A DNA stretch of 42,101 nt, from positions 1-42,101 of the IMG/VR virus record IMGVR_UViG_3300048837_000263; one strand, 5' to 3'. Shown one piece after another: positions 967 to 37,831 of the stretch (position 1 is its first letter; each line of letters opens with the position of its first letter). Source of the DNA: a virus. A model generated the notes under the pieces. It was not told the DNA's origin, did no database searches, and worked only from the letters and a program-made list of their open reading frames with translations. Both the position numbers and the translations under genes were made by a program.

Positions 967-2417
967 TCACTCTGCGGCCCGACCAACTCGATTTCGTCGA
1001 GCGCATCCGTGCTGCGTATCGTGGCGGGGCGATGGCTGTTCTGGGCTGCGCGCCCACGGGCATGGGCAAAACCGTGGTGTCCGCCTACATCGCCCGAGCG
1101 GCCGTCGAGAAAAAATCGCGCGTCCTATTTACTGTGCACCGAACCGAGCTCATGTATCAGACCAGCGACACGTTCGCGGCGTTCGGGATATCTCACGGAT
1201 TTATTAAATCCGGCATGATCTACGACCCGAACCACCTCGTGCACATCGCCAGCATCGACACGCTGCGCAACCGGTTGGAGCAAATACCGGCGCCGAATCT
1301 ACTCGTGGTAGACGAGTGCCATCTCGCACGCGCCGCTGGCTGGCACAGAATCATCGCGTGCTGTCGCGAGAACGGAGCGCGCGTGCTCGGCAACTCAGGG
1401 TCACCGCATCGCCTCGACGGCAAGTCGCTTGGCGATCTCTTCGATGCGCTCGTAGTCGGGCCTTCGACTGCTGAGCTCATCGCTGCGGGACATCTATCGA
1501 GGTTTCGTTACTTTGCACCGAACACTCCGGACATGACCGGAGCACGCAAACAACTCGGAGACTACACGTCGGCCGACGCGTCCGCTGCGGTGGACATACC
1601 GTCGATCACCGGCAACATCGTAGGCCACTGGAAAAAATACGCGCAGGGCATGAGGACGATATGTTTTACGATTTCTCACAAACACTCCGAGCACATCATC
1701 GAGGCGTTTCGCGGTGCTGGAGTGACCGCGGAGCAGATATCATCCAAGACGCCGCCAGTCGAGCGCAAGAGGCTGATCAACGCGTTCGCGGATGGCGAGA
1801 TTTCGGTGCTATGCAACGTTGAGCTGATCACCACTGGATTCGATTTGGCGGCTCAGGTCGGGCGCGACGTCACGGTCGAGGCGGTGATCATGGCCCGCCC
1901 GACGATGTCGCTGGCGCTCTATCTGCAGATGGTAGGACGGGCGTTGCGACGGAAGCCTAATCCGGCAGTGATACTCGATCACGCCGGCAACTCGGCGCGA
2001 CACGGATTCCCGGACGAGATTAGGGAGTGGTCTCTCGACGGAGATAACAAAGAGAAGGCAAAGAAAAAAACGCAGCCGCCAGTCACGTGCGAGGTGTGTT
2101 TCATGCAGGTGTGTAGGCCACTACCGCCACAATGCACGCACTGCGGAACGCCGTGGCCAGAGGCCGAAATGCGGCCTATCGTCGTCGATGAGACAGCGGA
2201 GCTCGTGGAGGTGTCAGAAGCGGAGCGACGGCTCGCGGATGCCCGCAAAAAGCACGAGGTGTCAGAAGCGGAGCGACGGCTCGCGGATGCCCGCAAAAAG
2301 CACGAGGTGTCACGCTGCCAGAGCCTCGAAGAGCTCGTCGCACTCGGGGCGCAGCGCGGCTACAAGCCCGGGTGGGCGCAGCACATTTGGCAGGCACGAC
2401 AGGCACGGAGAGCGTAA
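963..2417 (+). CDS. RadD-like DEAD/DEAH-box (SF2) helicase
   Basis: The 484-residue protein has all SF2 landmarks: Walker A GCAPTGMGKT (about 28-37), motif II DECH (117-120), motif III GNSGSPHR, and motif VI QMVGRALRR (about 322-330). A four-cysteine zinc ribbon (CEVC...CTHC, about 376-400) follows. The C-terminus GYKPGWAQHIWQ resembles the RGWAxHxF-type tail of RadD/YejH proteins. It probably unwinds or remodels DNA during replication or recombination. The start follows GGAGG at a normal distance and overlaps the upstream peptide stop. A perfect 16-residue tandem duplication (VSEAERRLADARKKHE twice) sits between the zinc ribbon and the tail. Confidence 0.9.
   Translation: MITLRPDQLDFVERIRAAYRGGAMAVLGCAPTGMGKTVVSAYIARAAVEKKSRVLFTVHRTELMYQTSDTFAAFGISHGFIKSGMIYDPNHLVHIASIDTLRNRLEQIPAPNLLVVDECHLARAAGWHRIIACCRENGARVLGNSGSPHRLDGKSLGDLFDALVVGPSTAELIAAGHLSRFRYFAPNTPDMTGARKQLGDYTSADASAAVDIPSITGNIVGHWKKYAQGMRTICFTISHKHSEHIIEAFRGAGVTAEQISSKTPPVERKRLINAFADGEISVLCNVELITTGFDLAAQVGRDVTVEAVIMARPTMSLALYLQMVGRALRRKPNPAVILDHAGNSARHGFPDEIREWSLDGDNKEKAKKKTQPPVTCEVCFMQVCRPLPPQCTHCGTPWPEAEMRPIVVDETAELVEVSEAERRLADARKKHEVSEAERRLADARKKHEVSRCQSLEELVALGAQRGYKPGWAQHIWQARQARRA
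2208..2303. repeat. Perfect 48-bp tandem duplication inside the helicase gene
   Basis: Bases 2208-2255 and 2256-2303 are identical, followed by a 9-base partial third copy. The unit encodes 16 residues of charged helix and keeps the frame. Perfect identity points to a very recent slippage or recombination event. Confidence 0.9.
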
Positions 2418-2419
2418 TA

Positions 2420-3526
2420 ATGGCGAAAGTAAATTACACGAAAACACCATGGCCATGGTTCGGTGGCAAGGCGGACGCGGCGGAGACCGTATGGCAAGCG
2501 CTCGGCGACGTCGTTCACTACGTCGAGCCGTTTGCGGGGTCGCTGGCCGTGCTCATGAGACGGCCTCGCCTCGCCAACCGTCCGTATTACTCGGAGACAG
2601 TAAATGACATTGACGGGCTGATCGTCAACGCATGGCGATCGATGCAACTCAGGCCACGCGAGACGGCCGAGGCGGCATCGTGGCCGGTATCCGAGGTCGA
2701 CCTGATGGCGCGACACATGGCGATCGTGCGTTGGCGCGAGAATAATGATCTCGACAAACTACTCGCGGACCCGGCATGGTGCGACCCCGTGATGGCGGGC
2801 TGGTGGATTTGGGGTCAGTCGTGCTGGATCGGCAGCGGATGGTGCAGCGGAACGGGGCCGTGGCACGTGGATCATGAGGGCCGTGTCGTGAGGCAGGAGC
2901 GGTCGAGTGGCACGCGCGAGCCGGGTGTATCGCGTCGGCTCCCGCACCTGACCAACAATGGCCGGGGTGCCAATCATCAGTGCACGCGCGAGCCCGGTGT
3001 GCCTGACGATATCGACGGCGACAGAATTTTTCACCCGATGACGATGCCGGATCTCCTGCGATGGTTTGAGTTTTTGTCGTCTCGGCTCCGGCACGTGCGA
3101 ATCATCCAAGGCGACTGGCAACGGGCGCTCACGCCATCGGCCAGCAAGACGCTATCGGTACGCATGGGTAATGGTATTTGCGGAGTGTTCCTTGACCCGC
3201 CCTATTCCACCGAGGCCGAACGCACGATGTCGATCTACACCAACGACTGCGGCGAAGTAGCGCATGACGTGCGCGCATGGTGTCTCGCCAATGGCGACGA
3301 TCCACAATATCGGATCGTTCTCGCGGGGTACGACAGCGAGCACGTGGAGCTAGAGGCCGCTGGCTGGCGTGTCGTTGAATGGTTCAAGACGGGGTTTCTG
3401 AAGGGCGGAATGGGCAATACTGGCAAGGCTAAATTTGACGAGGATGGCAACAAGATAGCGGGCGGGCAGCAAAAACGCGAGCGGCTATGGCTCTCGCCGC
3501 ACTGCATTTGCGCAACGAAAATCTGA
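2420..3526 (+). CDS. DNA N6-adenine methyltransferase (D12/Dam class)
   Basis: The 368-residue protein carries FGGK (14-17), the SAM-binding EPFAGS motif (about 38-43) and the catalytic DPPY (about 258-261), the order of D12-class adenine methylases. It is likely to methylate phage DNA against host restriction or to mark it for regulation. The start lies 2 bases after the helicase stop, behind GGAG; a longer upstream frame is open but overlaps the helicase. The central variable part is rich in Trp and Gly (WWIWGQSCWIGSGWCSGTG) and has a repeated TREPGV element, encoded by two 19-base stretches with one mismatch. This may be the target-recognition region. The recognition sequence cannot be read from the protein. 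Confidence 0.92.
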   Translation: MAKVNYTKTPWPWFGGKADAAETVWQALGDVVHYVEPFAGSLAVLMRRPRLANRPYYSETVNDIDGLIVNAWRSMQLRPRETAEAASWPVSEVDLMARHMAIVRWRENNDLDKLLADPAWCDPVMAGWWIWGQSCWIGSGWCSGTGPWHVDHEGRVVRQERSSGTREPGVSRRLPHLTNNGRGANHQCTREPGVPDDIDGDRIFHPMTMPDLLRWFEFLSSRLRHVRIIQGDWQRALTPSASKTLSVRMGNGICGVFLDPPYSTEAERTMSIYTNDCGEVAHDVRAWCLANGDDPQYRIVLAGYDSEHVELEAAGWRVVEWFKTGFLKGGMGNTGKAKFDEDGNKIAGGQQKRERLWLSPHCICATKI

Positions 3527-35817: not shown

Positions 35818-35835
35818 TTTTTTAAACCCTCTCGC

Positions 35836-36423
35836 TTAGCAATCGAAATGCTTCAGCTGCGCACTGCGGAACCTAGCCGTCGCCGAGCGCTTCAACTCGG
35901 TCCAGCCCATTGGCCACCCCATGAACCATTCGCACCACGTCGGGTTCAGTGGGCCAGGATGACCGCCGATGCTCTCCGACAGATTTGGCCCCTGCGACCG
36001 CGCTCGCGCCCTTCGTCCGCCTCCCCGCTTCGCATCCGAGCGCGTCAATGTTGGCATCATGCAGAGCGCAGTGTGCAGTCCGTCGCCGCTTTGCTTCGTC
36101 AGCCCCTTGCGGTTGTAGTTCCCGCATTTTGTGAGAGTCGGCAGCAAGAATCCACACCCGCTCTCGTCGATGCCATGCGCCAACTGAGAACGCTCCGAGC
36201 ACACCCCACGTCGCATCATACCCGAGCGAGGCAAAATCACCGAGCACTCGGGCAAGTCCTCGGGAAACAAGGTTTGGTGAGTTCTCCACGAACGCGATTC
36301 GAGGTCGAACCTCACCGATAATTCGGGCCATCTCCGACCAGAGTCCGGAGCGGGCGCCATCAATGCCTTTGCCGCTGCCAGCCGCGGAGATGTCCTGACA
36401 CGGAAACCCGCCCGAAACGACAT
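35836..36423 (-). CDS. Overprinted second-frame gene within the cytosine methylase
   Basis: The alternative minus frame is open to 36651; the ATG at 36423 gives 195 residues. It starts MSFRAGFRVRTSP, read out of phase from the methylase PCQ motif, then RRWPELSVRFDLESRSWRTH, QTLFPEDLPECSVILPRSGM, and ends LNPTWCEWFMGWPMGWTEL then RFRSAQLKHF. I recognise this as the pattern of a stand-alone phage protein family found next to or overlapping cytosine methylases ('LNPxWVEWLMGxPxGWTDL'). Both frames being open and protein-like over some 580 bases suggests dual coding. The alternative is that this pattern merely mirrors conservation in the methylase frame. No promoter or ribosome site is evident at 36423. 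Confidence 0.5.
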   Translation of the reverse strand: MSFRAGFRVRTSPRLAAAKALMAPAPDSGRRWPELSVRFDLESRSWRTHQTLFPEDLPECSVILPRSGMMRRGVCSERSQLAHGIDESGCGFLLPTLTKCGNYNRKGLTKQSGDGLHTALCMMPTLTRSDAKRGGGRRARARSQGPNLSESIGGHPGPLNPTWCEWFMGWPMGWTELKRSATARFRSAQLKHFDC

Positions 36424-36649
36424 CAACAATGCCTCGCCATGGCTTTCCGTCGAAAGCCCGAACGTCATCCCAGATGGGGAATGGCTCAAGACTCCCGTCG
36501 TTTTGTCGCGCGACCAAGACCGCTTGGCGGTACCGATCGAACTCCACTGCGCAGACAGTTCGCCAACCAAGATGGCGTCCGGTGAGGATGCTTCCGCCTG
36601 CGCCGGCGAATAGCGCGAGCTCTCGCAAAGTCGTTTGCTCATGATCCAC
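35873..36649 (-). CDS. dcm: C5-cytosine DNA methyltransferase, truncated by an amber codon
   Basis: From GTG 36649 the 258 residues carry motif I LALFAGAGG (11-19), motif IV GGFPCQDIS (PCQ 83-85), motif VI FVENS (120-124), motif VIII RRERVW (161-166) and motif IX/X WPTEPDVVRMVHGVANGL (from about 232). The enzyme should methylate cytosines, probably against restriction. The frame stops at TAG (35875-35873) right where the family has GNGQVP or GNAVVP; beyond the TAG it continues in frame VPQCAAEAFRLLSERV to TAA at 35824-35822, so CAG to TAG is likely. Sixteen residues of motif X tail are lost unless suppressed. The segment is also overprinted by another frame. Confidence 0.88.
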   Translation of the reverse strand: MDHEQTTLRELALFAGAGGSILTGRHLGWRTVCAVEFDRYRQAVLVARQNDGSLEPFPIWDDVRAFDGKPWRGIVDVVSGGFPCQDISAAGSGKGIDGARSGLWSEMARIIGEVRPRIAFVENSPNLVSRGLARVLGDFASLGYDATWGVLGAFSVGAWHRRERVWILAADSHKMRELQPQGADEAKRRRTAHCALHDANIDALGCEAGRRTKGASAVAGAKSVGEHRRSSWPTEPDVVRMVHGVANGLDRVEALGDG

Positions 36650-36992
36650 ATTTCATCGCCTCCCGCAACCGCGTCAGTGCCCTGCGCGCATCATCCATCC
36701 GTGCGAGCTGATCTTCGTATCCGGCATAGAGCTCGTCGTGCTCAGCAATCTTGGCGGAGAGCTCCTCGATGACTATTTGCAGATTGTCCTTGCGGACCGT
36801 GGCCCACTTCGCGTCGTAGGCCGCGAGGGCTTCGCGGCCGGCTGGCGTAAGCCCCTGAACTTCGACGTCGTCGATCGCCCACGAGAAATCATCACTACCG
36901 ATGCACGGGTGGCCGATATAGTGACCGGTCCAGACGTCGAGATCGATCGCGCGGAGGATCGTTGCTTGCTCGTGTGTTAGTTCGATGGTCAT
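36639..36992 (-). CDS. Unknown protein with coiled coil (117 aa)
   Basis: The N-terminus (TIELTHEQATILRAIDLDVW and VEVQGLTPAGREALAAYDAK) looks like a small winged-helix-like or 'TxxGxxAL' domain; LTPAGREAL is typical of the wing region of such proteins. Residues about 65-112 form a coiled coil (EELSAKIAEHDELYAGYEDQ). It overlaps both neighbours (ATGA with 36989; 11 bases with the methylase). The function is unknown. Confidence 0.6.
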   Translation of the reverse strand: MTIELTHEQATILRAIDLDVWTGHYIGHPCIGSDDFSWAIDDVEVQGLTPAGREALAAYDAKWATVRKDNLQIVIEELSAKIAEHDELYAGYEDQLARMDDARRALTRLREAMKCGS

Positions 36993-37297: not shown

Positions 37298-37831
37298 TTA
37301 ATTATCCCTCCAAAACTCCAGTTGCGCGCGAAGAAAAACAATCGTGCACTCATCGACCTTGTGATTCATTGCGAGATCCTGACCAATGCTACCAAGCCAC
37401 TCAGCGATGGTGAGAGTCGTGCATCCGATCCTAACGCAATTGCCCTTGCGCTGCGGTATCCATTCGCCGGAGCCGTCGCCGGAGCCGTAGCCTGAGCCGT
37501 AGCCGTAGCCTGAGCCTGATCCGTCGCCTGAGCCGTCGCCGGAGCCGTAGCCTGAGCCTGATCCGTCGCCTGAGCCGTCGCCGGAGCCGTAGCCAAAGCC
37601 GGAGCCGGAGCCGGAGCCGGAGCTCTCGCCGGAGCCGGAGCCGTAGCCTGAGCCGTAGCCGTAGCCTGAGCCTGATCCGTCGCCTGAGCCGTCGCCGGAG
37701 CCGTCGCCGGAGCCGGAGCCGGAGCCGGAGCTCTCGCCGGAGCCGGAGCCGTAGCCTGAGCCGTAGCCGTAGCCGGAGCCTGATCCGTAGTCGTCGCCGT
37801 AGCCGTAGCCGGAGCCCCTGAGATCAGCCAC
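37298..37831 (-). CDS. Alternating-glycine (GX)n low-complexity protein
   Basis: The 177-residue product starts at GTG 37831 behind AGGAG and overlaps the DUF6948 gene by 8 bases. Residues about 6-125 are almost strictly Gly at every second position, with Ser, Tyr, Asp, Glu or Phe between. A 25-residue block (YGYG...GESSGSG) occurs twice and GDGSGDGSG several times. A 50-residue C-terminal domain (RIGCTTLTIAEWLGSIGQDL ...ECTIVFLRAQLEFW) is ordinary globular sequence. Such a Gly/Ser/Tyr chain should be disordered, could phase-separate, or bind calcium via the Asp-rich turns. The role is unknown. Confidence 0.75.
   Translation of the reverse strand: MADLRGSGYGYGDDYGSGSGYGYGSGYGSGSGESSGSGSGSGDGSGDGSGDGSGSGYGYGSGYGSGSGESSGSGSGSGFGYGSGDGSGDGSGSGYGSGDGSGDGSGSGYGYGSGYGSGDGSGEWIPQRKGNCVRIGCTTLTIAEWLGSIGQDLAMNHKVDECTIVFLRAQLEFWRDN

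Follow-up and report, generated by a model that had tools for sequence, protein, structure and literature searches.

Not all m5C DNA methyltransferases consist of a single chain. M.EaeI is a two-polypeptide enzyme, and in M.EcoHK31I the ORF of the beta polypeptide is nested in that of alpha in another reading frame. In M.EcoHK31I, motif IX lies on the smaller second polypeptide while motifs I-VIII and X lie on the large chain, which is also where the predicted TRD has been reported (PMC3404938). M.AquI (CYCGRG) is divided differently, with motifs I-VIII on the catalytic chain and part of the variable region plus motifs IX-X on the second chain (PMC3404938). An out-of-frame ORF of another kind has been described within a phage methylase gene, namely the hidden HNH endonuclease or ShiLan domain (PMC11855218). 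Here we describe a phage methylase gene that is overprinted over nearly its whole length by a second conserved frame, and we compare it with these systems.

Two overlapping frames in a phage methylase gene

The window, by which we mean the entire stretch of 42,101 nucleotides that was analyzed, is a virus record of 42 kb whose genes include ones for a contractile tail, the capsid, and packaging. The sequence-only reading had reported two overlapping same-strand frames in a cytosine methylase, and all of the motifs that it quoted are present, on the minus strand (table). Frame A encodes the methylase chain and matches PF00145 (2.5e-30, residues 11-180), PHROG_363 (1.8e-59), and, through its catalytic domain, M.HhaI (1.7e-15). 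We find motifs I-VIII in this frame, including PCQ and ENV/ENS, as GGFPCQDIS, ENSPN, RRERVWILA, and TEPDVVRMVHGV. A TTG downstream of the GTG may be the start instead. Neither motif IX nor an intact motif X (GNxxxP) was found within the window's frame A, which ends early as GDG-TAG-VPQCAAEAFRLLSERV at a point where relatives read GNGQVP; the conserved reading continues past the TAG, and motif X is present in frame A of most relatives. Elsewhere in the window, a 384-aa protein (2372-3526) has an N-terminal match to the DNA methyltransferase family PHROG_56 (7.2e-18), and an ORF at 37298-37831 (minus strand) is composed mostly of short tandem Gly-Ser/Asp/Tyr repeats (GSGYGYGSGDGSGD).

Frame B lies on the same strand as A, one base out of step (+1), and overlaps it almost completely; its minus-strand translation reads MSFRAGFRVRTSP...LNPTWCEWFMGWPMGWTEL. 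It matches PHROG_1008 (1.3e-16) over profile positions 42-299 of 329, that is, over most of the family's length, and PHROG_26627 (1.1e-12). No Pfam or NCBIfam family was found for frame B, and a PDB sequence search with it gave no match. The ATG given in the table is the likely start of B, to judge from its overlap, as ATGA, with the TGA stop of the upstream gene. B had earlier been thought to begin at the DNA of the PCQ motif and to make about 580 bases dual coding. An ATG (36423) does lie there but is internal: B is open far upstream of it, its N-terminal part is conserved beyond the null expectation, and dual coding extends over about 770 bp, so that B spans nearly the whole methylase gene.

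Table. Features of the overlapping methylase frames in the window
Feature	Position	Strand	Evidence and remarks
Frame A, m5C DNA methyltransferase chain	35873..36649	(-)	PF00145, PHROG_363; 258 aa, GTG start, motifs I-VIII
In-frame TAG (35873-35875) and A-frame continuation VPQCAAEAFRLLSERV	35825..35875	(-)	Matches GNGQVPxVAxxAF of relatives
Frame B, overprinted protein, proposed second subunit	35836..36642	(-)	PHROG_1008; 268 aa from ATG 36642; ORF open from 36651
Dual start region	36639..36651	(-)	GTG of A 36649, ATG of B 36642, TGA stop of upstream gene 36641-36639; sequence and ORF coordinates
B core (MSFRAG... SWRTHQ...PEDL...SGMMRRG...), overprints A motifs IV-VIII	36150..36423, approximate	(-)	129.5 bits, null 78.0; exceeds every null in 80/80 loci
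Variable region, with LPTxTxxD repeats in B and a low-complexity spacer in A	35955..36150, approximate	(-)	32.2 bits versus null 2.2
Motif-IX-like block of B PLNPTWCEWFMGWPMGWTEL, overlaps A's TEPDVVRMVHGVANGLDRVEAL	35893..35955, approximate	(-)	Sub-significant hhalign match; position in natural one-chain fusions

Conservation of the second frame

A tblastn search of phages with B returned matches in Salmonella, Acinetobacter, Pseudomonas, Mycobacterium, Synechococcus, and Bacteroides phages, and in each phage locus examined the match sits inside the methylase gene in a different frame. In the set of loci collected through B (the B-first set), B is on the same strand and +1 relative to A in 92 of 92. 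As a null we permuted the synonymous codons of A within each gene, which keeps both the A protein and its codon usage. For the window, only 1.5% of these permutations keep the +1 frame open for as long as is observed, and the B profile scores 323 bits compared to at most 146 in the null. Across the 92 loci there are 1.7 stops per A gene in the +1 frame where 5.5 are expected from the shuffles, and no depletion in the +2 frame (15.6 observed versus 12.8 expected). The mean B-profile score is 273 bits versus 110 in the shuffles, and the score exceeds every shuffle at all 92 loci.

Given that these loci had been found through B, we redid the search from A alone, which is thus unbiased toward B. 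In this A-first search B is matched in 80/80 viral and 70/80 bacterial loci. B scores above every synonymous null in 80/80 viral loci, in 40/45 further viral loci that are relatives of the Bacteroides phage enzyme, and in 67/80 bacterial loci, a count that includes one non-hit of 2 bits (L289) and is better read as about 66/80. Those that fail are mostly canonical one-chain methylases with scores near the null, together with a truncated contig and borderline cases. Although 22 of the 80 viral loci also belong to the B-first set used for training, the other 58 are independent of it, and all 58 score above every shuffle. By segment, B exceeds the null at 78/80 loci in the N-terminal extension, 80/80 in the core, 77/80 in the repeat region, and 73/80 at the motif-IX end. 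Canonical one-chain m5C methylases, our negative control, show no excess in the B frame (observed about equal to null), and in a tree of the catalytic domain the B-bearing methylases are for the most part separated from the canonical ones, each group on its own side. Bacterial loci with B span about 10 phyla, among them Pseudomonadota, Bacteroidota, Bacillota, Actinomycetota, Verrucomicrobiota, Planctomycetota, Cyanobacteriota, Myxococcota, and Lentisphaerota.

We also compared substitution in A to that in non-overlapping flanking genes, a choice of control that matters in that loosely chosen flanking ORFs are contaminated by spurious ones. For pairs with 90-98% protein identity, differences at fourfold sites are 2.5-fold less frequent in A (0.079) than in flanking genes (0.198), and the ratio of third- to first-position differences is 1.55 in A versus 4.15 in flanking genes. 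The fourfold contrast shrinks to 0.318 versus 0.420 at 80-90% identity and is absent at 70-80%, a loss that is expected from saturation. Taken together, the conservation of the +1 frame above the nulls and the suppression at fourfold sites show that B is a conserved coding sequence under its own constraint, paired with A in phages and prophages of many phyla, and that the dual coding is long-lived. This agrees with the earlier suggestion of a genuine and widespread overprinted gene, whose frame is open in homologs and whose substitution pattern goes beyond what the methylase frame demands.

The same suggestion held that the gene had been overlooked, which is only partly the case: annotation usually keeps one frame, but some records annotate B or both frames, and PHROGs holds B as a family. 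For instance, the halves are annotated as two overlapping 'DNA methylase' genes in Yecey3 and Arturo, and both nested frames are called methyltransferases in Leyra. In the Streptomyces phage phiBT1, only A is annotated, as gene 9.1, with the remark that it 'may be inactive'. An unannotated +1 ORF overlaps gene 9.1 in phiBT1 (locus L299, 1610-2542) and contains the B core, an LPTP repeat, a motif-IX-like block, and motif X. Hundreds of 'DNA cytosine methyltransferases' of phages and prophages are probably annotated as half an enzyme, some of them as inactive, and anyone who recoded frame A to clone it by itself would unknowingly destroy the second subunit.

Identity of the second protein

The C-terminal LNPxWVEWLMGWPxGWT of B fits motif IX of M.HhaI-type enzymes by pattern. 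Among 273 B-bearing loci, a motif-IX pattern occurs in A's frame in 1, and a strict form of it in B's frame in 193. When B is aligned to canonical m5C methylases with hhalign, motif IX is the only match, over exactly the 20 columns of this block and at a sub-significant score. Natural fusions and frame switching are a stronger argument for the identity of B than either of these observations. In the Mycobacterium phages Ramsey (gp69) and ShiLan (gp70), one chain, all of it in A's frame, combines the catalytic part with LPTP repeats, EWMMGWPAGWV, and motif X, and about 20 further viral contigs carry LPTP repeats, EWMMGWPAGW, and motif X in A's frame. Close relatives (L320, L322, L325, and L330) have the same C-terminal block in the +1 frame. 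Motif X itself lies inside B in several loci; in most it is read in A's frame, past B's motif IX. Among relatives, both motif X and the motif-IX block move between frames. An AF2 model of a one-chain fusion has a confident catalytic part and motif IX-X end with a disordered LPTP region, and it matches M.HhaI. Based on these data, B is most likely not an unrelated overprint but the C-terminal part that the methylase itself is missing (motif IX and the variable region), as in M.EcoHK31I.

The region between motifs VIII and X varies in other ways. Four loci (L225, L235, L249, and L169) differ in repeat number there, and the unit read as WPTPxAxD in B is ADADGxGR in A; tandem repeats of this kind, coding in both frames, could drive the frame switching. 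In Streptococcus phage Javan565 (L301, 1592-2275), a +1 ORF within a cytosine methylase has a B-like core (SLKTSQD...WGMMRNG) and a different tail, LSDILEEQVDERYFLSEE, possibly a third type of C-terminal module in Bacillota phages.

We propose that two almost fully overlapping same-strand frames encode a two-chain m5C DNA methyltransferase of which B is the second subunit, and we regard this as the probable explanation of the sequence evidence. Chain A, which has motifs I-VIII and, in the majority of relatives, also X, would bind AdoMet and catalyze the reaction. From the frame one base further on, chain B would supply motif IX and a variable part that replaces the target-recognition region. 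In 119 of 145 loci of the window's clade, a start codon of A (ATG 59, GTG 45, TTG 15) precedes B's ATG by exactly 4 nt, and this dual start has a strongly conserved context, RTGAATGAGYTGGC. With starts only 4 nt apart in these relatives, one ribosome-binding region could serve both chains, feeding first the start of A and then the ATG of B, and the two polypeptides would combine into a single enzyme for marking phage DNA. This scheme predicts that B is made as a protein and binds A, and that methylation depends on it. The variable LPTP repeats may recognize DNA; their role as recognition modules is a guess, and recognition by B is only putative given that the predicted TRD of M.EcoHK31I is reportedly on the large chain. 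A further and more tentative proposal, which we think has the odds against it, is that a major m5C methylase clade of phages and prophages has complete dual coding of its catalytic and recognition halves as its standard layout, kept across phyla; the LPTPxAxD units of B would act as exchangeable modules of specificity, and repeat recombination would switch the C-terminal half between chains, giving one-chain or two-chain enzymes in close phages.

Several observations count against the two-chain enzyme. The AF2 model of the window's B alone is poor (pLDDT 59, pTM 0.31) and a Foldseek search with it found no fold match; this might be expected of a subunit without its partner, but it is not evidence for one. 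The motif-IX profile match is not significant, B has no sequence match in the PDB, the fourfold contrast fades at lower identity, and the window's A has a TAG in motif X. The absence of a fold match would also suit a real overprinted protein whose job is a separate one (as an inhibitor, a regulator, or a counter-defense factor, say) and which merely shares the methylase DNA, as would the long N-terminal extension and core (SWRTxQ...SGM) of B, which have no recognizable methylase motifs, and the finding that natural one-chain fusions still retain the core ORF in the +1 frame. However, B ends in the motif-IX-like block that A is missing, relatives have this block joined in frame to A, with motif X after it, and several B proteins contain motif X themselves, so that we consider a separate job improbable. 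Those fusions, along with the invariable +1 position of B, could instead point to a single chain, with a programmed +1 frameshift leading from A into B. Against this, B has its own conserved ATG just past the start of A, its coding is conserved upstream of any useful shift point, and in most loci the product of a shift would lack motif X, which is in A's frame downstream of B's motif IX; we judge frameshifting very unlikely. It is harder still to credit that B is an artifact of chance and composition, in which GC-rich DNA yields long spurious frames and the conservation of A drags B along. Shuffles of A do retain residual similarity to B (the mean of 110 bits above), and ORF length alone is often not significant at loci in GC-rich genomes, but B outscores every shuffle in nearly all loci, including the AT-richer L247 and L277, and there is no excess in the third frame or in canonical methylases. 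Synonymous permutation thus rules out a chance ORF in GC-rich DNA.

A different question concerns the window's own copy of A, which may be defective through the TAG in motif X, or the record may contain an error. In this phage A could be dead and only B maintained, an explanation that is compatible with a two-chain enzyme for the family as a whole. The TAG falls inside motif X with conserved reading beyond it, and it leaves frame B unaffected: its T occupies the third position of a GCT (Ala) codon in B, at which the change, judged from the sequence, would be silent. The remainder of A is intact, though, and one sequencing or strain-level change suffices to give the TAG, which makes a pseudogene possible but doubtful to us. 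Recoding of TAG in this phage is unsupported, since TAG terminates 6 of the 45 ORFs tallied. The window's copy of the proposed two-chain enzyme may still work despite the stop.

Comparison with described systems

Of the canonical enzymes, M.HhaI and M.HaeIII share the catalytic domain of A, but they have motif IX and the TRD in the same chain, and the canonical one-chain enzymes that we tested lack a conserved second frame. PHROG_1008, a family labeled 'DNA methyltransferase' of which B is a member, is documented in its library without mention of an overlap with PHROG_363 in another frame. The ShiLan domain is a mobile homing insertion, whereas B overprints the methylase's own conserved motifs in nearly all relatives. 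A hidden homing endonuclease of that type was rejected for our locus, as B has no HNH match and is not an insertion. Our literature search, which covered mainly open-access papers, found no paper describing the overlap of A and B across phages.

The division of M.AquI is resembled by Yecey3 (gp86/gp85) and Arturo (gp76/gp75), which are split similarly, but the window's clade keeps motif X on A, and its two frames overlap along almost their full length. The precedent for the layout is M.EcoHK31I (YGGCCR), in which motifs I-VIII and X are on the large chain and IX on the small one, as in most relatives here; in this comparison B's motif IX is recognized by pattern and position, with a profile score that is not significant, and the window's A is without an intact motif X. 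By analogy, the locus would work like an M.EcoHK31I-type enzyme. For the sequence of M.EcoHK31I itself we searched E. coli DNA, plasmid proteins, and 295 genomes of the family of the Kluyvera genome, and recovered relatives of B but none identified as EcoHK31I. Within that family, loci L341-L358 carry a divergent B subfamily (STLYKLTWK...LRASVRRTSGS...WPTPTA), and one of them (L342) adjoins an apparent P2-type replication gene.

The locus also differs from M.EcoHK31I. That enzyme has been described as an isolated restriction-modification enzyme, whereas the loci here are phage and prophage loci spread over about 10 phyla, and, compared by description rather than by sequence, B is longer, with an N-terminal part of its own and a start 4 nt from that of A. 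The locus offers a case of same-strand overprinting that is nearly complete, widely conserved, and unusually clean, in which both frames have recognizable parts of one enzyme and the same module occurs in either frame among related phages. What is new relative to the M.EcoHK31I precedent is the breadth of the system, the 4-nt spacing of its dual start, and the fact that relatives switch frame.
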